A DNA stretch of 39,886 nucleotides from Candidatus Saccharimonadota bacterium (GTDB taxonomy: Bacteria; Patescibacteriota; Saccharimonadia; Saccharimonadales; Saccharimonadaceae). The DNA is taken from positions 1 through 39,886 of the forward strand of contig JAFWKY010000006.1 in NCBI GenBank assembly GCA_017514105.1. Direction: 5' to 3'. Of this stretch, positions 24,616 to 35,528 are shown piece after piece. The translations under genes and the position numbers were made by a program. Positions within the stretch are counted from its first letter, which is position 1, and every line of letters begins with the position of its first letter. The notes under the pieces were generated by a model. That model was given only the letters and a program-made list of their open reading frames with translations, did not search any database and was not told where the DNA came from.

Positions 24616-24625
24616 TTGACTTATG
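24608..24625 (+). promoter_or_regulatory. Extended -10 of serS, containing the rsmA stop codon
   Basis: TGC-TATAAT (hexamer 24611-24616) ends six bases before the serS ATG. The rsmA stop TAA (24613-24615) is part of the hexamer. Confidence 0.65.
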
Positions 24626-25867
24626 TTAGATGTGAAGTTTATACGAGAAAATCTTGAACTAGTAGAAAAGTCTGCTAAGGAAAAGGGATACAAGGTAAAT
24701 GTCCAGGAGGTACTCGGGCTGGATGACAAACGCAAGGCAGTTTTGGCTGAAGTAGAGGCGTTGCGCCAGAAGAGAAACGAAATTGCTGCCCAGATGAAAG
24801 GCGGTAAGCCATCGGCGGATTTGATTGCGGAAGGTAAGGCCATTAAGGCGAAACTTGCCGAAAAAGAAGAGGCTTTGTCTGCGGCCGAGGCAGAGGTAAA
24901 CAACCTAGTAAAACGCATACCAAATGTGATTTTTGATGATGTGCCATTAGGTGGCGAAGAATGCTCGGTAGAGGTTAAGGCTTGGGGGGAGCATCACAAG
25001 ACCGGCGTTGATCATTTGGATTTTGCTACCAGCAGAGATTGGTTAGATTTTGAGCGGGGTGCGAAAGTGGCTGGTGCGAAGTTTTATTATCTGAAAGGTG
25101 ACTTGGCACTCTTAGAGAATGCTTTGCTGCAATATGGACTGTCCAAGGTATTAGAACATGGCTTTACTTTTATGACGGTGCCAGATATGGTATGTTCGCG
25201 AGTGCTGGAGGGCTGTGGGTTTAATCCGCGGACGAGTGACCAGTCTGATGAATATTATATTGAGGGTGAAGATTTGGCGCTAATTGCGACGGCAGAGATG
25301 TCACTCACTGGTTATCATATGGATGAAATTATTGATGAGGACAAGTTGCCACTGTTTTATGCTGGCTATTCGCCGTGTTTCCGCAAAGAGGCTGGTGCCT
25401 ATGGCAAGTACACGCGTGGTTTGTTCCGCGTGCACCAGTTCAATAAACTAGAAATGTATGCGTTTTGTTTGCCAGAACAGAGCAAAGAGATTCATGAGAA
25501 AATTTTGGCGATCGAGGAAGATATCTGGCAAGGACTCGGTATTCCGTACCACGTGATTAACATTGCAGCGGGTGATCTTGGTGCTCCGGCAGCAAAAAAA
25601 TACGATATGGAATATTGGTCGCCAGTGAACCAGAAGTATCAGGAGATTACGAGTTGTTCTAACTGTACAGATTTTCAGGCGAGAGCGGTGAATTGCCGGG
25701 TACGTCGCAAGGATGGTACGGTGGAATTTGTACATACCCTGAACGGTACAGCGATTCCTCTGGCACGAGCGCTCGTAGTTCTGCTTGAAAATTACGCCAC
25801 CGAAGACGGCAAGTTTAAGGTACCGGAAGTTTTGCGGCCTTATCTGGGCGGACGAGAAGAACTTTAA
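24623..25867 (+). CDS. serS: Seryl-tRNA synthetase
   Basis: Charges tRNA-Ser. The 414-residue protein has the N-terminal antiparallel coiled-coil arm (about 25-105, AEVEALRQKRNEIAAQMK and KAKLAEKEEALSAAEAEV) that grips the long variable arm of tRNA-Ser. The class II core follows, with LIATAEMSLTGYH, motif 2 CFRKEAGAYGKYTRGLFRVHQF, split around Arg, and motif 3 VHTLNGTAIPLARALVVLLE. Its promoter overlaps the rsmA stop. hpf follows after 16 bases with its own Shine-Dalgarno site, in the same operon. Confidence 0.96.
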   Translation: MLDVKFIRENLELVEKSAKEKGYKVNVQEVLGLDDKRKAVLAEVEALRQKRNEIAAQMKGGKPSADLIAEGKAIKAKLAEKEEALSAAEAEVNNLVKRIPNVIFDDVPLGGEECSVEVKAWGEHHKTGVDHLDFATSRDWLDFERGAKVAGAKFYYLKGDLALLENALLQYGLSKVLEHGFTFMTVPDMVCSRVLEGCGFNPRTSDQSDEYYIEGEDLALIATAEMSLTGYHMDEIIDEDKLPLFYAGYSPCFRKEAGAYGKYTRGLFRVHQFNKLEMYAFCLPEQSKEIHEKILAIEEDIWQGLGIPYHVINIAAGDLGAPAAKKYDMEYWSPVNQKYQEITSCSNCTDFQARAVNCRVRRKDGTVEFVHTLNGTAIPLARALVVLLENYATEDGKFKVPEVLRPYLGGREEL

Positions 25868-25883
25868 TTAAAAAGGAGAAAAT

Positions 25884-26246
25884 ATGATTGAAAAAATCGA
25901 CATCAACGGCAACGATTATAAGGTAGAAGAAAGTTTTAAGAAGTACGTTGAGAAGAGAATCGGCAAATTGGACCGCTACTTGCCGCGCGGATCCAAAAAA
26001 GATGTGCACGTCAGGGCGTTAGTAACGGAAATTGGAAAAGGTAAAACCGAAAAATATGAAATCTCTATCGCGATGGAGATTCCTGGCGGTAAGGTAATCG
26101 CAGCACGCGACGAATGCACAAATGTATTTGCTGGCGTAGATCTAGTAGAAGCAAAATTGACCGGACAAATCCGTCGGTATAAATTGGAAATGCAACCACA
26201 TCGCCAAAAGCGAAGCCTGAAAAATCTCTTTATTAAGAGAAAATAA
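25884..26246 (+). CDS. hpf: Ribosome hibernation promoting factor, short form
   Basis: A 120-residue HPF/RaiA (YfiA-type) protein that blocks the mRNA and tRNA channel of the small subunit in resting cells. The pattern MIEKIDINGNDYKVEESFKK-YVEKRIGKLDRYL, the central basic strand and LVEAKLTGQIRRYK match the family. It lacks the C-terminal dimerisation domain of long HPF. The basic tail (HRQKRSLKNLFIKRK) fits RNA contact. A good Shine-Dalgarno AAAGGAG precedes the ATG. It follows serS in one operon. Confidence 0.9.
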   Translation: MIEKIDINGNDYKVEESFKKYVEKRIGKLDRYLPRGSKKDVHVRALVTEIGKGKTEKYEISIAMEIPGGKVIAARDECTNVFAGVDLVEAKLTGQIRRYKLEMQPHRQKRSLKNLFIKRK

Positions 26247-26248
26247 TG

Positions 26249-26291
26249 TGGTATAATACAGAGGAAAACTAATTCCGTTTGGAGGTTTATG
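26249..26291 (+). promoter_or_regulatory. Promoter and Shine-Dalgarno site of secA
   Basis: TGG-TATAAT (hexamer 26252-26257), a leader of about 25 bases, then GGAGG (26281-26285) before the ATG at 26289. Confidence 0.75.
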
Positions 26292-29105
26292 ACGAAAAAG
26301 ACCGAAGAGGCTGTGAAGTCTGCTGTGAAAAAAGTTGACAAGACAGAAAAGCCTAAGAAAGCACGCGAAGAAAAGAAGCCAAGCGATAAATTGGCAGACA
26401 AGAGTGCATTGACGAAGTTCTTGCAGGGTATTTTTGGTGATCCACAGAAAAAGATATTGAAAAAACTCTGGAAGCGTGCTAAGGAAATTGGCGATTTGGA
26501 GCCAAAATACGAGGCAATGAGCGACGACGAATTGAAGGCGCAGACCGAGAAGTTCCGCAAGAAGATTGATAAGGCATTAAAGCAGGTACGCACCGAAGAT
26601 GGTGTTGCTTCCAAGAAACAGAAGAAAAAAGCACCAGTAGATGATACAAAAGTGCTAGACGAGATTTTGAATGATGCTTTTGCAGTAGCGAGAGAAGCCT
26701 CGCGACGTGTGCTCGGCATGCGTCCGTATGATGTACAGTTGATCGGTGGTATGGTACTGAACTCTGGCGCGGTAGCAGAGATGAAGACTGGTGAGGGTAA
26801 GACTCTCGTTGCAATGTTGCCAGCATATCTTAATGGTTTGACTGGTAAGGGCGTGCACGTGGTAACGGTGAATGATTACCTTGCGCAGCGTGATGCTGGA
26901 TGGAATGGTCCAGTGTATGATTTTTTGGGACTGTCCGTAGGTGTAATTATCAATAACGCCTCTTTTGTGTATGACGCGGAATATGAGAACGAAGAGCACG
27001 AAGATGAGCGTTTCCGTCATCTAAAGCCAGCAACGCGCAAAGAAGCATATAATGCTGACATTACTTATGGCACAAATAATGAGTTTGGCTTTGATTACTT
27101 GCGTGATAATATGACTAGCGAAGTGCAGTATTTGCGCCAGAGAGAGTTGAATTTTGCAATTGTGGATGAGGTAGACTCAATCTTGATCGATGAGGCGCGA
27201 ACATCACTTATCATTAGTGCTCCAGCGGGCGATAATCCAGAAGCATATTATCAATTCGCAAAAATTGCCGACAGATTAACGCCGGAGGACTACGTACTTG
27301 ACGAAAAGCGTCGTTCGGTAACTCTGACAGATAAAGGTATTGAGAAAGTTCAGCAGATTTTGGGCGTAAAGAATCTATATTCTACGGCAAATACGCGCTT
27401 GGTGTACCACATGGAGCAGGCGCTTCGCGCAGAAGTTTTGTTCAAACGTGATAAAGATTACGTGGTAACGAATTCTGGTGAAGTGATTATCGTAGACGAA
27501 CATACTGGGCGTTTGATGCAGGGACGTCGTTATAATGAAGGTTTGCATCAGGCAATTGAAGCAAAAGAAGGCGTGGTAGTAAAACAAGAATCTATGACGC
27601 TTGCAACGATTTCGTTCCAGAATTTCTTCCGTTTGTATAATAAATTGTCTGGTATGACGGGTACTGCGTTCACGGAAGCGGAGGAGTTCCAACAGATTTA
27701 CGCGCTGGATGTGATTCAGATTCCACCGAATCGTCCAATTCAACGTGTTGACAAAGACGACTTGATTTACAAAACCAAGGCTGGCAAACTAAAAGCCATT
27801 GCTAAGGAGATTCAGAAATATCACGAAAAAGGTCAACCGGTATTGGTGGGTTCTGGCTCAATTGCCAACAACGAGGAAATCGCGAGATATCTGGATCAAT
27901 TTGGGCTGCCGTATGAGATTTTGAATGCAAAGAATAATGAACGTGAGGCGGCAATTATCGCGAAGGCTGGCGAAAAGGGCGCGATCACGCTCGCAACGAA
28001 TATGGCAGGTCGTGGTACGGATATTAAGTTGGGCGAAGGAGTGGCAGAACTCGGTGGTCTAGTGGTGATTGGCTCGGAACGTCATGACTCGCGGCGCGTG
28101 GATAATCAGTTGCGTGGTCGTGGTGGTCGTCAGGGCGATCCTGGTACGACACAATTCTTTGTGAGTTGCGAAGACGATTTGATGAGAATTTTCCAGGGCG
28201 ATAGAGTAAAGATGTTGCTTACTCGTTTAGGCGTGGACGAAGACACCCCGATTCAAACGAAGTCCATCTCAAAGACTTTGGAGTCGGCGCAGAAGCGTAT
28301 TGAAGGGTTCAACTTTGACTCGCGTAAGAATGTGGTGCAGTACGATAACGTAATCAACCGTCATCGTAAAGTTGTCTACATGATTCGTCGTAAGATTTTG
28401 ATGGGTGATGATATTTATCCAGAAATCAAGCGTTTGATGCGCGATGAAGCCGAGGCGCTTACGATGTTTTCGTCACGCGTAAACAAGAACTTTGACAAAG
28501 AGTTCAAAGCGATATTTAACTTTGATGATGATTTGATTCATGGTATCGGTCTAAAGCGCAAGGAAAAGGAACGTCAGAAGTTAGCACTTGAGGCAATTGA
28601 AGAGGCTTACAAGAAAAAGGAAGAGGAGTTTGGTCCTGAAACTATGCGTAAGGTAGAGCGCGAAGTTTACCTGAAGGTACTCGATATGCTCTGGATGCAA
28701 CATTTGGAAAATATGCAACATTTGCGTGAAGGAATTCATTGGCGTAGCGTAGGCCAGCGCGATCCGTTGGTAGAGTATCGCTCTGAGTCGCAAAAGCTAT
28801 TTGATGGTTTACAGAGAAACTTGCGCGAAGAAGTACTAAAGATTTTGCTAACTATTACCCCAGCGGAAGCACGCGCGGATGATGTGATGGATGGCGAAGA
28901 ATACGAGTCTGAACTCACCAAGATGGCAGAATCGCAGACCGAGAAGGGTGTGAACGAGGTTTCGGCCGGAGACAAGAACTTGGATGACGAATTCAAGAAG
29001 AAAACACCTGGTGCGGGCGTAAAGGCACCGTCTAGACCAGCAAAAAAGAACTCCAAGAAGAGTTCTAAGAAGAAGAAATCCAAGAAAAAAGGAAAAAGAA
29101 AGTAA
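26289..29105 (+). CDS. secA: Preprotein translocase ATPase SecA
   Basis: Motor that drives unfolded preproteins through SecYEG. The 938-residue protein has all core parts: Walker A MKTGEGKT (165-172), the DEVDSILIDEAR box, the preprotein cross-linking region, TNMAGRGTDIKLG, RGRGGRQGDPG, and the helical scaffold with LDMLWMQHLENMQHLREGIHWRS. A Lys-rich N-terminal extension of about 40 residues precedes the core. The C-terminus lacks the zinc-binding Cys/His motif used for SecB and lipid contact. It ends instead in a tail of almost only Lys and Ser (from about residue 907). Another oddity is the Lys-rich linker KKQKKKAP near residue 117. Confidence 0.96.
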   Translation: MTKKTEEAVKSAVKKVDKTEKPKKAREEKKPSDKLADKSALTKFLQGIFGDPQKKILKKLWKRAKEIGDLEPKYEAMSDDELKAQTEKFRKKIDKALKQVRTEDGVASKKQKKKAPVDDTKVLDEILNDAFAVAREASRRVLGMRPYDVQLIGGMVLNSGAVAEMKTGEGKTLVAMLPAYLNGLTGKGVHVVTVNDYLAQRDAGWNGPVYDFLGLSVGVIINNASFVYDAEYENEEHEDERFRHLKPATRKEAYNADITYGTNNEFGFDYLRDNMTSEVQYLRQRELNFAIVDEVDSILIDEARTSLIISAPAGDNPEAYYQFAKIADRLTPEDYVLDEKRRSVTLTDKGIEKVQQILGVKNLYSTANTRLVYHMEQALRAEVLFKRDKDYVVTNSGEVIIVDEHTGRLMQGRRYNEGLHQAIEAKEGVVVKQESMTLATISFQNFFRLYNKLSGMTGTAFTEAEEFQQIYALDVIQIPPNRPIQRVDKDDLIYKTKAGKLKAIAKEIQKYHEKGQPVLVGSGSIANNEEIARYLDQFGLPYEILNAKNNEREAAIIAKAGEKGAITLATNMAGRGTDIKLGEGVAELGGLVVIGSERHDSRRVDNQLRGRGGRQGDPGTTQFFVSCEDDLMRIFQGDRVKMLLTRLGVDEDTPIQTKSISKTLESAQKRIEGFNFDSRKNVVQYDNVINRHRKVVYMIRRKILMGDDIYPEIKRLMRDEAEALTMFSSRVNKNFDKEFKAIFNFDDDLIHGIGLKRKEKERQKLALEAIEEAYKKKEEEFGPETMRKVEREVYLKVLDMLWMQHLENMQHLREGIHWRSVGQRDPLVEYRSESQKLFDGLQRNLREEVLKILLTITPAEARADDVMDGEEYESELTKMAESQTEKGVNEVSAGDKNLDDEFKKKTPGAGVKAPSRPAKKNSKKSSKKKKSKKKGKRK

Positions 29106-29129
29106 TCTTCCGTCAACTTATTTGGGTAT

Positions 29130-30401
29130 ATGAAACATTCTGTAGAAGAGGTACAACTAAAAAATGGCGCCAAGGGGTTGTTGATAAATATCCCTGGTGC
29201 CAGCGTAATGGCGACGCGAGTAGAATTTCGTGCGGGTATGCTCTATGCGAAAAACCGCGATATCTATGAGTTACCGCACGTGGTAGAGCATCTGGCATTT
29301 GGTGCTAATGCGAAGTTTCGTGACGAGCAGGCGTTTGAGGCAGAGTTCACCAAAAACGGTGCTTATCACAATGCTTGGACTAGTGATGTGTCGGTATGCT
29401 ATGAAACTGAATGTGCAGATTTTGAGTGGGATAGGATTATGGAACTGCAGCGAGTGTCTATTTGCGAACCGAGATTCAATGAGGAAGAACTAAAGTCGGA
29501 AAAGGCCAATGTGCGGTCGGAGTTGACCGGATATATGAATGATTATTATCGTTTGCTTTGGCCACGAGTGCAGCAGGCGGTGGGTGAGGAGATTTTGGAC
29601 TTACCGGAACGCCTGAAGACAATTTCAAATATTGAACTGAAAGACATTCGCGAGCACTATCGTCGTACGCATACGGCGAAGAATATGCTTTTTATTATTG
29701 CGGGCAAGATTCGTGGGCGCAAACACAAAATTATCAATGAGTTAGAAAAATGGCCACTTAAGGAAGGCGAGAAGTTTGAGATTCCACGGGCAGATCTTCA
29801 TTCTTCGGAGGCAGTATCAATTCGCCGCAAAGATGCCTCTAATATCACCTTTGGTTTTTCTTTGGTGACGCCGCGACATCTGGAAATTAACGAAGTTTTT
29901 GCAATGAATTGTCTGAACCATATCTTGAATGGGACGACCAATTCACGAATTTTTGGTGCAGCGCGGAAAAAAGGTTTGGTCTATGGGATGGGCAGTTCGG
30001 TGGCCAGCAATTCACATCATACTTATTGGGATTTTGACGGTGAAGTGAACGTAGAAAATGCTGAGGAATTGTTCCTCTTGATTCAAAAGGAATTAATGCG
30101 GACGCTGAACGGCGAGATTTCGGATAGGGATTTTGAGGCAGCGAAGTCTTATGCGCTGGGACGTTTTCAGATGGGAGCGCAGACGGTCGGACAGGTCGCA
30201 GATTATTACGCAGAGAATTATTTCGTGAACGAAGGTGTGCTAAAGTACGATACGGTGCCGAATTTGATTCGGGGAATAGATAAGGCAAAAATGATAGAAC
30301 TCGCACGCGAATTTGCGGGGTCTGGAATTAAGGGGTTTGCTACGGTGTCGTCAGTAGAAAAGGCAGTGATTTCGGGGTTGGAAACGCATCTGAATTTTTA
30401 G
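29130..30401 (+). CDS. M16-family zinc metallopeptidase (insulinase-like)
   Basis: A 423-residue single-chain M16 protein with two half-domains. The inverted zinc motif HxxEH is present as PHVVEHLAFG (about 50-59), with the distal zinc-ligand Glu in EELKSEKANVRSEL. The second half keeps the substrate-handling pattern ARKKGLVYGMGSS. There is no signal peptide, so it is probably cytoplasmic and may cut peptides. It lies 24 bases after secA without an obvious promoter, so cotranscription is likely; a role in clearing signal peptides or export leftovers is speculation. Confidence 0.88.
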   Translation: MKHSVEEVQLKNGAKGLLINIPGASVMATRVEFRAGMLYAKNRDIYELPHVVEHLAFGANAKFRDEQAFEAEFTKNGAYHNAWTSDVSVCYETECADFEWDRIMELQRVSICEPRFNEEELKSEKANVRSELTGYMNDYYRLLWPRVQQAVGEEILDLPERLKTISNIELKDIREHYRRTHTAKNMLFIIAGKIRGRKHKIINELEKWPLKEGEKFEIPRADLHSSEAVSIRRKDASNITFGFSLVTPRHLEINEVFAMNCLNHILNGTTNSRIFGAARKKGLVYGMGSSVASNSHHTYWDFDGEVNVENAEELFLLIQKELMRTLNGEISDRDFEAAKSYALGRFQMGAQTVGQVADYYAENYFVNEGVLKYDTVPNLIRGIDKAKMIELAREFAGSGIKGFATVSSVEKAVISGLETHLNF

Positions 30402-30404
30402 GTG

Positions 30405-30422
30405 TGCTATAATTGAATTATG
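30405..30422 (+). promoter_or_regulatory. Extended -10 of murD
   Basis: TGC-TATAAT (hexamer 30408-30413) ends six bases before the ATG at 30420. No Shine-Dalgarno site. Confidence 0.65.
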
Positions 30423-31715
30423 AAAATTGCAGTTTTGGGGTATGGTAAAGAGGGGAAAGCAGTTGAGAAGTATTTTTCTCGGCGAGGTGACGAGGTGGAG
30501 ATTTTTGATAATTTCACGTTGGACGACCTCAAAGGAATTGATTTTTCGGGATATGACATGGTCTTTAGGAGCCCATCTGTGCATCCGAGAGAAGGTTTTA
30601 CTAGTGTAACGAGGTATTTTTTTGAAAAGTGCCCGGCGCCAATTATTGGTGTGACGGGGACCAAGGGGAAGGGCACGACTTGCTCGCTAATTACTGCGAT
30701 TCTTCAGGCGATTGGTAAGAAAACCTATCTAGTGGGGAATATCGGTAAGCCGGCGATAGATGTGTTGGACGATTTGACGAGTTCGGATGTCGTGGTGTAT
30801 GAAATGAGTAGTTTTCAGTTGTGGGATCTTGAAAGGTCGCCGAAAGTGGCGGTGGTATTGAGGATAGAAGCAGACCACCTCAATGTGCATGATGGATTTG
30901 ATGATTATGTGGGCGCGAAGGCGAATATCGCAAGGCATCAGACGGTGGATGATACGTTGGTGTATTTCAAAAACAACAAATGGTCAGTGAAGGTTGCGGA
31001 AGAATCTTCTGCACATAAATTGGCTTATCCACTACACGATATGTCTGAAAAAATGCGTAATCTGCTGAATTGTCTGGGTGTGCCGGGAGAGCATAACAAG
31101 GAAAATGCCGAAGCAGCGTTACTGGCAGTGGCGGGATTTTTGTGCCTGCCGGTAGAGGATGTGGTATCGGAATACTATGAGGAAATCGCGCGGGCCTTTA
31201 GAGATTTTAAGGGTTTGCCGCATCATATTGAATATGTAAGAACCTTGAACGGCGTAGATTATTATGACGATAGTTTTTCGGCGTCATATCCGTCACTTGA
31301 CGTAGCGATTAAAGCATTCGCCGACCGACCATTGGTGCTAATCGCGGGTGGCAAAGACCGAGGACTAAATCTGACCATGGAAAAACGGGCGATTTTTGAC
31401 GCGCCGAACCTTCTCAAAGTGATTTTAATCGGCGAAACTAGGCAAAAATTGGCGGATGGTGAAGACGCAGAAAAATACCTGCTGAGTAATAGTTTGGAAA
31501 GGGCCGTAGTGAGTGCGCGCAATGAGGCGGAGCGTTTGAGCGAGAATGAGCGAGCAGGGCGGATGGTGCAAGATGCGAACGGAGAGAGTTACGAGGCAAG
31601 CAACGGCACTGGCCCAGTGGTGTTGCTCAGTCCTGGAGCGGCGAGTTTTGACATGTTTAAAGATTTTTATGAGCGAGGCGACAAATTCAAAGAATTAGTA
31701 AAGGAATTAAAATGA
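30420..31715 (+). CDS. murD: UDP-MurNAc-L-Ala--glutamate ligase (MurD, probably MurD2 type)
   Basis: Mur ligase that adds glutamate to UDP-MurNAc-L-alanine in the cytoplasm. The 431-residue protein has an N-terminal Rossmann domain (VLGYGKEGKAV), the ATP loop GVTGTKGKGTT (about 75-85), VYEMSSFQLWDL, IEADHLNVH and EHNKENAEAALL. The C-terminal domain has YYDDSFSASYPSLDVAI, LIAGGKDRGLNL and LLSPGAASFDMF. The downstream murL, overlapping by 4 bases, implies that this ligase uses L-Glu (MurD2 chemistry) and that the product is then epimerised. Substrate preference cannot be read from the sequence itself. Confidence 0.92.
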   Translation: MKIAVLGYGKEGKAVEKYFSRRGDEVEIFDNFTLDDLKGIDFSGYDMVFRSPSVHPREGFTSVTRYFFEKCPAPIIGVTGTKGKGTTCSLITAILQAIGKKTYLVGNIGKPAIDVLDDLTSSDVVVYEMSSFQLWDLERSPKVAVVLRIEADHLNVHDGFDDYVGAKANIARHQTVDDTLVYFKNNKWSVKVAEESSAHKLAYPLHDMSEKMRNLLNCLGVPGEHNKENAEAALLAVAGFLCLPVEDVVSEYYEEIARAFRDFKGLPHHIEYVRTLNGVDYYDDSFSASYPSLDVAIKAFADRPLVLIAGGKDRGLNLTMEKRAIFDAPNLLKVILIGETRQKLADGEDAEKYLLSNSLERAVVSARNEAERLSENERAGRMVQDANGESYEASNGTGPVVLLSPGAASFDMFKDFYERGDKFKELVKELK

Positions 31716-32953
31716 GTTTTGAATTTTTGAATTATTCGTTTGATGAAGCAACTGGCGTGGCGGAGTTTCGGTATCGGAACGGTGCGGAGACTTTTGCAGA
31801 AAAAGTAACTTTCGCGATAAAACGCTCTGAGAGATACGACAAAAAAGCTTTGGAACGGGCGTTGTTTTTGGCATTTATGGTACTAGGTACGTCGTATTAC
31901 AAAGTTGCGGCTGGGAGAGAAGTGAAGGTCGGTGGCAAATTGGACGAGTGGCAGGCGAAGTTTTTTGATAAAGTTTATCAGGAAGGACTGAGCCAGTTTG
32001 CTTTTGAGAATGGGCTGACGCGGGATAACTTGGCGCATTTTGTGGCGAACGAGGACGCTAACGGTGGCGTCGTGAACAGCAATAGCGAAGCGTCGGTTGC
32101 GTGGTCTGGTAGTACTGAGGCCGACGTATTGGAAGATGAGCGTGTGTTGGTGCTGGTGAGCGGCGGAAAGGATTCGCTACTTACACTAGAAATGCTACGA
32201 GAACAGGGCGCGAAGTGTTACGCAATGTATATTACTTCGCAAGAAAGTTATCCAGAAATTGTGGACGAGGCCGCGGGAGAAATGAACCCGGTAATTGTGC
32301 GGCGTGAGATAGACAAAGAAGCTCTAAAACGTGCTGGCGGAATGAATGGTCATGTGCCAGTGACGATTATCAACGAGGCGTTAGCGTTGGTGCAGGCGAT
32401 TTTGCTCAGGTGCGGCAAAATTGCGCTGGGAATTGGCATGGAAGGCATGGAAGCGCACGCGTGGATTGATGATTTGCCGGTAAACCACCAGTGGTCCAAG
32501 ACGGCAGAGGCGCAGAAACTTTTGCGTGAATATGTGAAACAATACATTTCTGCGGATTTGACAATAGATTTGCCGCTAGAAAAATATGACGAACTTGCGA
32601 TTGCACAGATGTTTGCAGAAAAATGTTGGACAAAATATGGTGATAAGTTTTCGTCTTGTAATGTGGCGAATTACAAACAGGATGCGAACAATCGTGAATT
32701 GAAATGGTGCGGAAAATGTGCGAAGTGCGCGAACTCATACTTGTTGTTTGCGCCATTTGTGGCATACGAGGAGCAAAAGAAGATTTTTGGGCATGATTTG
32801 TTTGAGGATGCAGATTTGACAGAAATCTATAAGGGACTTTTGGGCGTGGATGGCGTAATGAAGCCGTTTGAGTGCGTGGCGAGCAGGGCAGAACTAAAAA
32901 AAGCCTATCGCGATAGGCTGCCCGGATATGGTGAGTTGCCGTTTGAGATATAA
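31712..32953 (+). CDS. murL: UDP-MurNAc-L-alanyl-L-glutamate epimerase (MurL)
   Basis: Two-domain enzyme that turns the terminal L-Glu of UDP-MurNAc-L-Ala-L-Glu into D-Glu, using ATP. The N-terminal domain (about 1-125) has the family pattern AFMVLGTSYYKVAAG. The C-terminal ATP-pyrophosphatase-like domain starts with LVSGGKDSLLTLEML (Ser150-Ser155), then GHVPVTIIN, VNHQWSKT and SSCN, and a CxxCxxC cluster WCGKCAKC. These blocks agree with remembered MurL proteins of Xanthomonas and actinomycetes. The start overlaps murD by 4 bases, with AAAGGAAT upstream. The genetic link to murD supports both assignments. Confidence 0.87.
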   Translation: MSFEFLNYSFDEATGVAEFRYRNGAETFAEKVTFAIKRSERYDKKALERALFLAFMVLGTSYYKVAAGREVKVGGKLDEWQAKFFDKVYQEGLSQFAFENGLTRDNLAHFVANEDANGGVVNSNSEASVAWSGSTEADVLEDERVLVLVSGGKDSLLTLEMLREQGAKCYAMYITSQESYPEIVDEAAGEMNPVIVRREIDKEALKRAGGMNGHVPVTIINEALALVQAILLRCGKIALGIGMEGMEAHAWIDDLPVNHQWSKTAEAQKLLREYVKQYISADLTIDLPLEKYDELAIAQMFAEKCWTKYGDKFSSCNVANYKQDANNRELKWCGKCAKCANSYLLFAPFVAYEEQKKIFGHDLFEDADLTEIYKGLLGVDGVMKPFECVASRAELKKAYRDRLPGYGELPFEI

Positions 32954-33373: not shown

Positions 33374-33382
33374 ATTATAACA
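33374..33382 (-). promoter_or_regulatory. Extended -10 of the small gene, containing the dus stop codon
   Basis: Minus strand TGT-TATAAT (hexamer 33374-33379). The dus stop TAA (33375-33377) is inside the hexamer. It gives a leader of about 136 bases. Confidence 0.6.
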
Positions 33383-34337
33383 CATTGTTTCGTAAATCAA
33401 CCGTTTCTAAAATGGCGCGCGCTTCGGAAATGGAATGAGTCTCCATGAGTTTGGCGCGGATGTCTGATGCGCCCGGGAAGTTGTTGACGTAGATTTTGAA
33501 AAAATGCTTTAGAGGCTCGTAAGACAGTGCCCGAGAAGATGCTTTTTCGTACAAGTCCAAATGCAAATTTAAAAGTTCCATCAATTCTTCGCGGGTGGGT
33601 TGGTGGTCGGTAAAGCAGTAAGGATTTTGGAAAACGCCACGGCCGATCATAAAACCATCTACTTCCGGATACTTGGCGTGAAGTTCTAGAGCATGTGCGC
33701 GGTCCTTGATGTCGCCATTAATAACCAGTTTGGTAGTTGGGCTAATTTCGTTGCGCATTTTGATGATTTCTGGAATAAGTTCGTAATGCGCGGGAACTTT
33801 GCTCATTTCCTTTTTGGTACGAAGATGAACTGTGAGAGCGGCTGGTTGTTCGCGGAGTAGCATTGGCAGCCATTCGCGGAACTCGTCTGGTTGGCTCCAA
33901 CCGAGGCGGGTTTTGATGGAAACTGGTAATTCTGTGTGAGCGCGGGCGTTACGGTAACATTTTGTGGCGAGATCTGGTGTTTTGATCATGGCAGCGCCGC
34001 CGCCGGTACGATTGACGTTCTTGTCTGGGCAACCAAAATTGAGGTCTACTCCCGAAAAACCTAGCGATTGGAGCGCGCCGGAAACTTCCGCAAAATGTTC
34101 AGGATTTTTACCCCAAATTTGGGCAATAATAGGGGAATCTGATGGCGCAATCCTTAGGCGTTCCAAGGCGTTCCAGCGGCCTTTTTCGGAAGCGTAACTC
34201 GAAACGTTGGTAAATTCTGTAAAAAACAAATCTGGCCGTCCGGCATGAGCAATAACTTGGCGGAAAGCGATATCGGTGACGCTTTCCATGGGTGCCAAGA
34301 TTAGAAATGGTTTAGGTAATTCGTTCCAAATATTCAT
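33375..34337 (-). CDS. dus: tRNA-dihydrouridine synthase
   Basis: FMN enzyme that reduces uridine to dihydrouridine in the tRNA D loop. The 320-residue protein starts at MNIWNELPKPFLILAPMES; the longer frame to 34421 crosses the divergent prfB promoter and is rejected. The TIM barrel shows LAPMESVTDIAFR, FTEFTNVSS, IAQIWGKNPEHF, the catalytic Cys in DLNFGCPDKNV, SIKTRLGW, LTVHLRTK, VINGDIKD and FMIGRGVFQNP, then a helical C-terminal RNA-binding domain. The usual KGGAGSALM loop reads RTGGGAAMI. Which Dus subgroup (A, B, C) is not clear. TGC-TAGATT upstream is a weak -10. Confidence 0.93.
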   Translation of the reverse strand: MNIWNELPKPFLILAPMESVTDIAFRQVIAHAGRPDLFFTEFTNVSSYASEKGRWNALERLRIAPSDSPIIAQIWGKNPEHFAEVSGALQSLGFSGVDLNFGCPDKNVNRTGGGAAMIKTPDLATKCYRNARAHTELPVSIKTRLGWSQPDEFREWLPMLLREQPAALTVHLRTKKEMSKVPAHYELIPEIIKMRNEISPTTKLVINGDIKDRAHALELHAKYPEVDGFMIGRGVFQNPYCFTDHQPTREELMELLNLHLDLYEKASSRALSYEPLKHFFKIYVNNFPGASDIRAKLMETHSISEARAILETVDLRNNVL

Positions 34338-34400
34338 AAACGTACTCTTTAATCTAGCACGAGTGGCGCAAGAAATCAACCCCCCACCCCCAGGAAATAA

Positions 34401-34418
34401 TGGTATAATGAATACATG
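34401..34418 (+). promoter_or_regulatory. Extended -10 of prfB
   Basis: TGG-TATAAT (hexamer 34404-34409) ends six bases before the ATG at 34416. No Shine-Dalgarno site. Confidence 0.65.
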
Positions 34419-35528
34419 CAAGATTTACTTAAACGTCTGAATATACTAGAACAAGATTTCAAACAGGTATATGACAAACTGAAAATTGATGAAAAAATCA
34501 GCGAAATATCCGCATTAGAAAAAGAAGTTGCGGAGCCGGAAATTTGGCATAATGTGCAGTTGGCGACCGAAAAAAATCAACGTTTGGCGCAACTTTCCGA
34601 CGAAGTGCAACCTTGGCAGTTGTTGGATACGCAAATTGCAGACATCAAAGAATTAATTGAACTTGCAGACGATAGTTTGCGCGCTGAAGTCGAGACGCAA
34701 ATTGCAGCGATGGAAAATCAACTGGCCGAATTAAAAAAGGCTCTCAGATTTACTGGAAAATACGACGAGAATGACGCAATTCTCAGAATTACTTCTGGTG
34801 CCGGCGGTACAGAAGCAATGGACTGGGCCGGGATGTTGGAACGAATGTATGTGAGATTTGCGGAAAGAAATGGACTAAAAATGGCCCTGATAGAAAAAGT
34901 CGCGGGCGAAGAGGCAGGCATAAAGACTGCTGTGTACGAGATAACGAAAAATGGAGTAGGTGGCGATAATACAGATAACTTTATGGGCGCAAAAGCATAC
35001 GGGATACTGAAATCTGAACATGGCGTGCATCGTTTGGTGCGCTTGTCGCCGTTTAATGCGAATAATTTGCGCCAAACTTCGTTTGCCTTGGTGGAGATTT
35101 TGCCAGTCATCAAGGCCGATACGGATGTGCAAATAGACGATAAAGATCTCAGAATTGACGTTTATCATTCTGGCGGTCATGGTGGACAGTCTGTGAATAC
35201 TACTAATTCGGCGGTACGAATTACGCATCTTCCTACAAATACAGTTGTGGCGATTCAAAACGAGCGCTCGCAACTACAAAACAGAGAGAAGGCGATGGAG
35301 ATTTTGCGTGGCAAATTGGTACAAATGCAACTGGAACAGCACGCTGAGTCAATTGACAAATTACGCGCTGGCGAGTCGGCCGGATGGGGACAGCAAATCC
35401 GAAATTACGTTCTGCAGCCATACAAGTTGGTCAAAGACACGCGAACTGGCTACGAAGAAACCGACCCGGACGCAGTGCTTGACGGCAAAATTGAAGGTTT
35501 TATTGATAATTATCTTGAAAATAATTAA
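34416..35528 (+). CDS. prfB: Peptide chain release factor 2
   Basis: Terminates translation at UGA and UAA. The 370-residue protein has the helical N-terminal domain (about 1-110), the codon-reading tripeptide Ser211-Pro212-Phe213 (RLSPFNANN), and the GGQ motif at 256-258 (SGGHGGQSVN) with NSAVRITHLPT. The SPF tripeptide separates it from RF1. The frame is continuous, so the autoregulatory +1 frameshift of Escherichia coli prfB is not used. Its presence, and TGA as the stop of rnhA and of the histidine kinase gene, show the standard bacterial code. Confidence 0.95.
   Translation: MQDLLKRLNILEQDFKQVYDKLKIDEKISEISALEKEVAEPEIWHNVQLATEKNQRLAQLSDEVQPWQLLDTQIADIKELIELADDSLRAEVETQIAAMENQLAELKKALRFTGKYDENDAILRITSGAGGTEAMDWAGMLERMYVRFAERNGLKMALIEKVAGEEAGIKTAVYEITKNGVGGDNTDNFMGAKAYGILKSEHGVHRLVRLSPFNANNLRQTSFALVEILPVIKADTDVQIDDKDLRIDVYHSGGHGGQSVNTTNSAVRITHLPTNTVVAIQNERSQLQNREKAMEILRGKLVQMQLEQHAESIDKLRAGESAGWGQQIRNYVLQPYKLVKDTRTGYEETDPDAVLDGKIEGFIDNYLENN

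Follow-up and report, generated by a model that had tools for sequence, protein, structure and literature searches.

The window analysed here is one whole contig of 39,886 bases, belonging to a Saccharibacterial genome of 497,967 bases in 17 contigs that is estimated to be 75.6% complete; the genome searches covered all contigs except 353 bases of one contig. Two ORFs on the forward strand, at 30420–31715 and 31712–32953, encode proteins of 431 and 413 residues. The first matched the MurD profile TIGR01087 at 269 bits, above the curated cut-off of 211.95, and the second matched the MurL profile NF041275 over residues 2–398 (237 bits, E 2.5e-70; runner-up family, E 0.0035), confirming the assignment of murD followed by murL at 30420–32953 in an earlier sequence-only reading of this DNA. 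The murD stop and the murL start overlap in ATGA (31712–31715), suggesting probable translational coupling. The MurL motifs quoted in that reading are all present, beginning at residues 61 (SYYKVAA), 150 (SGGKDS), 213 (GHVPVT), 257 (VNHQWSK), and 333 (CGKCAKC), and they fall on the most conserved, invariant or near-invariant columns of the family (18–33 MurL relatives aligned). The pair is flanked by secA and an M16 peptidase gene on the left (26289–30401, forward strand) and by dus (reverse strand) and prfB (forward strand) on the right (33375–35528), and both flanks are conserved in relatives. The window also contains murA, and murC, mraY, ftsW, murG, murJ, ftsI, ftsA, and ftsZ are found in the genome. 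Searches of the genome with E. coli queries found no murB, alr, or ddl, and thus the rest of the D-amino-acid route is documented only in part; the missing matches may be due to absent sequence or to divergence.

The score of the window MurL lies below the strict NF041275 equivalog cut-off of 700 bits, which is set for Xanthomonadales. The MurL proteins of Dyella (690 bits) and Micromonospora (374 bits), the latter a genus with a verified MurL enzyme (PMC8788868), also lie below it, and therefore the cut-off marks a taxonomic subgroup rather than a function. The window MurL is 33–35% identical to these two proteins, and the nearest named relatives retrieved with a MurL profile belong to Candidatus Saccharibacteria, the closest being contigs from sheep and goat gut. 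Wherever both genes could be placed in murL-bearing relatives (20 genomes), murL adjoins murD, indicating that the pairing is not due to chance. The two are also fused into single ORFs in both orders in various Patescibacteria, as murL-murD in eleven loci (L155, L157, L162, L173, L174, L199, L212, L217, L223, L240, and L241) and as murD-murL in two Saccharibacterial ones (L180 and L185). No MurL was found in the viral contigs searched. In a human stool contig filed as 'Bacteriophage sp.' (MT836755.1, 3878–6536; L304), murD follows murL, and the record is probably bacterial and misfiled. Another contig, labelled Bifidobacteriaceae (L182), carries a Saccharibacterial-type murD-murL pair, and its label is likely a binning error.

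The glutamate pocket and descent of MurD

In E. coli MurD bound to D-Glu mimetics, K348 and T321 bind one carboxylate, and S415 and F422 bind the other (PMC3527612). In Xanthomonas oryzae MurD2, the substitutions R358K and E197D alter the specificity, and the double change yields a D-Glu enzyme (PMC8788868). Alignment of the window MurD (residues counted from Met) to the E. coli enzyme places Ala288 (codon 31281–31283) at T321, Arg314 (31359–31361) at K348, which corresponds to R358 of X. oryzae MurD2, and Phe416 (31665–31667) at F422. At E. coli position 182, the equivalent of the specificity residue E197 of X. oryzae MurD2, the window MurD has retained Asp; D or E at this position was considered as a marker and rejected, because it does not separate the groups.

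Among 132 MurDs, T321 and K348 are both kept in all 63 from genomes without MurL and are never both kept in the 69 from genomes with MurL. The same rule holds inside the genus of the window (25 without and 10 with MurL). One MurD (G117) was first classed as canonical despite bearing the Arg; murL was then found on another contig of that genome, and the rule held. The 321/348 pair was fixed after inspection of the alignment, position 348 having been named by the earlier paper, and a blind scan agrees with the choice: when all columns were ranked without bias by their mutual information with the presence of MurL, those leading in the Saccharibacterial clade were E. coli positions 422, 321, 322, 346, 350, and 348, in that order, so that the column of Phe416 separates best.

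This association might be a by-product of shared ancestry, in which a single murL-bearing MurD lineage has drifted; such an explanation would weaken the residue argument but not the homology argument. On the MurD tree of the genus, the MurDs of murL-bearing genomes indeed need only three changes, and most carry related cassettes. On a tree of 135 MurDs, however, parsimony over the Saccharibacterial portion gave seven changes of murL, seven of the pocket, and seven joint changes with no discordant ones, and therefore every switch coincides. A SecA-M16-SerS tree, in which MurD is not used, provides seven independent pairs, and all seven show the association (sign test, p 0.016). In addition, a murI-bearing genome with T321 and K348 (G032) nests inside a murL clade with a support of 99–100, a Saccharibacterial MurD with S321 and R348 (L238) is paired with an actinobacterial-type MurL, and the D-Glu pocket is where the changed columns are concentrated. 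The association between the pocket and MurL is not accounted for by shared ancestry, and we regard drift of a single lineage as improbable.

The likeness to the Xanthomonas MurD2-MurL pair proposed in the sequence-only reading holds for the homology of MurL but not for the descent of MurD. In our trees, which are quick or FastTree trees, the window MurD lies within the Saccharibacterial clade among canonical MurDs (support 0.999), and MurD2-type enzymes form a separate clade. The latter unites the MurL-linked MurDs of Micromonospora, Actinoplanes-type Actinobacteria, Dyella, and many Patescibacteria; its signature is E or D182, T321, and R348, and its gene order is mostly murL-murD, or a fusion in this order, with divergent neighbours in Actinobacteria being only loosely examined. 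The Saccharibacterial MurL-linked MurDs show the order murD-murL, and most have A or S321 and R or K348. Three further MurDs (L166, L170, and L249) fall outside both of these regions of the tree. Given these several positions, MurDs of the L-Glu type seem to have had more than one origin. The X. oryzae system (XOO_1320/XOO_1319), also verified in Micromonospora and Salinispora (PMC8788868), thus resembles the window in the adjacency of a MurD-type ligase and a MurL homolog, in the Arg at the K348/R358 site, and in that neither MurI nor a D-amino-acid transaminase was found. It differs in its gene order (murL-murD) and in the clade of its MurD. The window enzyme has Asp at the E197 site and Ala at T321, where MurD2-clade enzymes mostly keep Thr, and the pair resides in a Saccharibacterium and is passed between closely related genomes as a cassette.

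Other sources of D-glutamate

The sequence-only reading had expected the genome to lack murI and had suggested a search for a D-amino-acid transaminase. Neither was found: PF01177, TIGR00067, and a MurI profile derived from relatives gave no match in the 75.6%-complete genome, and no aminotransferase of class IV was found in this genome or in the genus. Nor did the genome or the genus yield DapF, which doubles as a glutamate racemase in Chlamydia (PMC5885031). The ORFs of the genome with racemase-like motifs turned out to be ribosomal protein L16, a DUF362 protein, and two proteins with no Pfam match, and none is a recognisable racemase. Because the genome is 75.6% complete, the absence of murI from it is by itself weak evidence, and the near-complete murL-bearing relatives carry the argument. 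No true MurI was found in G007 (98%), G162 (100%), or G206 (99%); the only TIGR00067 matches in these genomes were weak (41 bits in G007 and 29 bits in G162), and in the protein from G007 the first catalytic cysteine is missing.

MurI-like proteins of relatives scoring about 25–45 bits were considered as hidden racemases and rejected, since those aligned lack the first catalytic cysteine (CNTA changed to ANYL or similar). A MurI-like paralogue was also observed at seven loci (L048, L049, L051, L052, L053, L054, and L047, with the match at about 1501–2190), in which the region of the second catalytic cysteine is kept and CNTA is replaced. It occurs in genomes with or without MurI or MurL, and for this reason it is probably not a glutamate racemase.

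MurL and MurI are distributed in a nearly exclusive manner. Among 60 relatives, 21 have MurL, 21 have MurI above the cut-off, and one has both; among 381 genomes of the phylum, the numbers are 61 (MurL, >200 bits), 114 (MurI, >100 bits), and one, with 18 expected to have both. The hypergeometric P of 1e-9 ignores relatedness and serves only as a guide. The sole genome with both genes among the 60 relatives (G038; L036/L062 and L024/L020) has two MurDs, a canonical one beside murI and one of the Arg348 type beside murL. Contamination of the bin may account for this co-occurrence.

The murD product might still be an ordinary D-Glu ligase, supplied with D-Glu by import or by a murI located in the quarter of the genome that was not recovered, with MurL doing other work. 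Besides the incompleteness of the genome, this explanation can draw on 14 of the 36 genomes of the genus (the window's included) in which the searches found a canonical MurD with T321 and K348 but neither a true MurI nor MurL, DapF, or a class IV transaminase (G001, G004, G005, G008, G012, G015, G016, G022, G023, G026, G028, G029, G031, and G035); G022 is 98% complete. D-Glu from outside may thus be possible, uptake from other cells being one idea, and a lack of MurI alone would not prove the MurL route. In the genomes lacking both MurI and MurL, however, T321 and K348 are intact without exception, at least one of the two has been lost in every MurL genome, and the near-complete murL-bearing relatives likewise lack a true MurI. 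We therefore consider an ordinary D-Glu ligase very improbable here. Compared with the canonical combination of MurD and MurI, the window shares the MurD fold, the locus, and the Saccharibacterial MurD clade, but its D-Glu pocket is altered and no MurI was found. MurI activity has reportedly been observed in Candidatus Saccharimonas aalborgensis (pmid 38558504). The sequence-only reading remarked that a reduced bacterium could in this way do without glutamate racemase. Genome reduction is insufficient as an explanation on its own, because MurI persists in close relatives with genomes of similar size, and still others possess neither gene. A different arrangement was seen in L106 (G049:C9:20083-22112), where a gene for a class IV aminotransferase of the D-amino-acid type lies directly 3' of a canonical murD, possibly representing a third source of D-Glu beside murD.

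Predicted fold of MurL

The published MurL requires ATP, produces AMP, and has been described as having no known domains. Pfam, including QueC (PF06508), gave no family at E <= 0.001 for the window MurL, and a sequence search of the PDB found no MurL chain. An AlphaFold2 model of the protein (pLDDT 91.7) was compared with solved structures. The best match was QatC (Z 19.4; 327 residues, rmsd 3.7), followed by QueC (Z 14.1; 190 residues) and Cap9 (Z 13.2), with the next row at 9.6, and MurL is accordingly predicted to adopt the fold of a QueC/QatC-type PP-loop ATPase. In QueC and QatC, an SGGxDS loop holds the ATP phosphates, and QueC has a zinc motif, C(x)8CxxCxxC. The corresponding elements of MurL are the putative pyrophosphate-binding loop SGGKDS (residues 150–155; 32159–32176) and CGKCAKC (residues 333–339; 32708–32728), which together with C316 likely forms a metal site as in QueC, although the spacing differs, being C(x)16CxxCxxC in MurL. 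MurL thus resembles the PP-loop proteins QueC, QatC, and Cap9 in predicted fold, SGGxDS loop, and cysteine-rich metal-type motif, and QueC also carries out ATP-dependent work on a carboxylate; it differs from them in partner and substrate and in giving no Pfam QueC match. The fold is a computed one, and for the chemistry we infer that a PP-loop ATPase adenylating the glutamate α-carboxylate would explain both the use of ATP and the one-way epimerisation. We found no mention of MurL as a QueC-family fold in the open-access literature, the range of our search.

Since the best full-length structural match belongs to the qatABCD anti-phage system, one could suppose that MurL is a defence or nucleoside-modification protein standing beside murD by chance, but its sequence kinship to MurL (E 2.5e-70) and the missing Pfam QueC match, its constant pairing or fusion with MurD, its near-exclusion of MurI, and its neighbours (secA, M16, dus, and prfB) make this scarcely credible.

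Probable exchange of the cassette and its meaning

The locus is constant in position but variable in content. The frame of serS-secA-M16 and prfB is shared by most of the genus, with dus present in the subgroup of the window, and between M16 and prfB lies either murD alone or murD-murL, each in either orientation. A contig from sheep jejunum (L175) has serS, secA, M16, murD-murL, dus, and prfB as in the window, with 72–91% identity outside the cassette, which places the window in the Saccharibacteria. Between close relatives, murD and murL (30420–32953) are about 45–66% identical, as against mostly 74–89% for the adjacent secA, M16, and serS (24623–30401) within the same subgroup. The contrast is sharp in one subgroup of genomes that have murI or lack MurI, in which M16 is 81–89% and SecA 85–89% identical to the window proteins but MurD only 45–49%. 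On a tree of the flanking genes, the five genomes G000, G007, G025, G162, and G206 lie dispersed between genomes that have murI or lack MurI; G206 neighbours G010, G025 neighbours G003, and the flank data reject a grouping of the five (AU p 7e-89). MurD with its pocket columns removed groups the same five and rejects the flank clade (AU p 0.0008). Given this conflict between the trees, murD-murL travels as a cassette from one close relative to another, and horizontal swapping at one fixed site is the simplest reading.

The proposal in the sequence-only reading, that L-Glu is ligated and then epimerised by MurL, is supported by four lines, namely the lack of matches to MurI, a transaminase, or DapF, the exclusion between MurL and MurI in 381 genomes, the perfect association of MurL with an altered D-Glu pocket in MurD, and the joint horizontal transfer. 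MurD would ligate L-Glu onto UDP-MurNAc-L-Ala, and MurL would then epimerise the glutamate in place on the precursor through adenylation, epimerisation, and hydrolysis, following the published proposal for X. oryzae MurL; the substrate, the stereochemistry, and these steps we infer, whereas the gene order, the homology, the near-exclusion of MurI, the residue association, and the tree conflict are observed directly. In this genus the module would sit between secA-M16 and dus/prfB as a murD-murL cassette that has been exchanged horizontally for a murD of the D-Glu type, in many cases with a murI at another place in the genome. We hold it highly probable that murD-murL is a module making D-glutamate on the precursor and that it is a horizontally swapped cassette in this Saccharibacterial genus. 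A broader picture, which we consider likely, is that L-Glu MurDs arose more than once from D-Glu MurDs, each together with MurL, by changes at T321 and K348 (and 422), and that in gut Saccharibacteria the cassette is exchanged with a D-Glu-type murD at one site, so that the stereochemistry of a core step of wall synthesis would be swappable within a genus.

The further suggestion that this route separates the wall synthesis of the organism from that of its hosts is speculation, because some Actinobacteria (Micromonospora and Actinoplanes) use MurL as well. D-Glu is almost universal in bacterial walls. In Vibrio fischeri, attempts to evolve a new D-Glu route led to mutations in a racemase or in transport (PMC12502697). 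The open-access literature that we searched yielded no mention of MurL in Patescibacteria or Saccharibacteria, and our analysis adds much of the Patescibacteria to the few Proteobacteria and Actinobacteria that make up its described range. It also gives MurL a predicted fold and thus a testable mechanism. Whether T321 and K348 are both kept provides a sequence rule predicting the D-Glu route of a genome, and inhibitors of MurI should not act on users of MurL. The repeated and closely matched switches offer pairs of near-sisters in which to study how a ligase comes to accept the opposite hand of its substrate.
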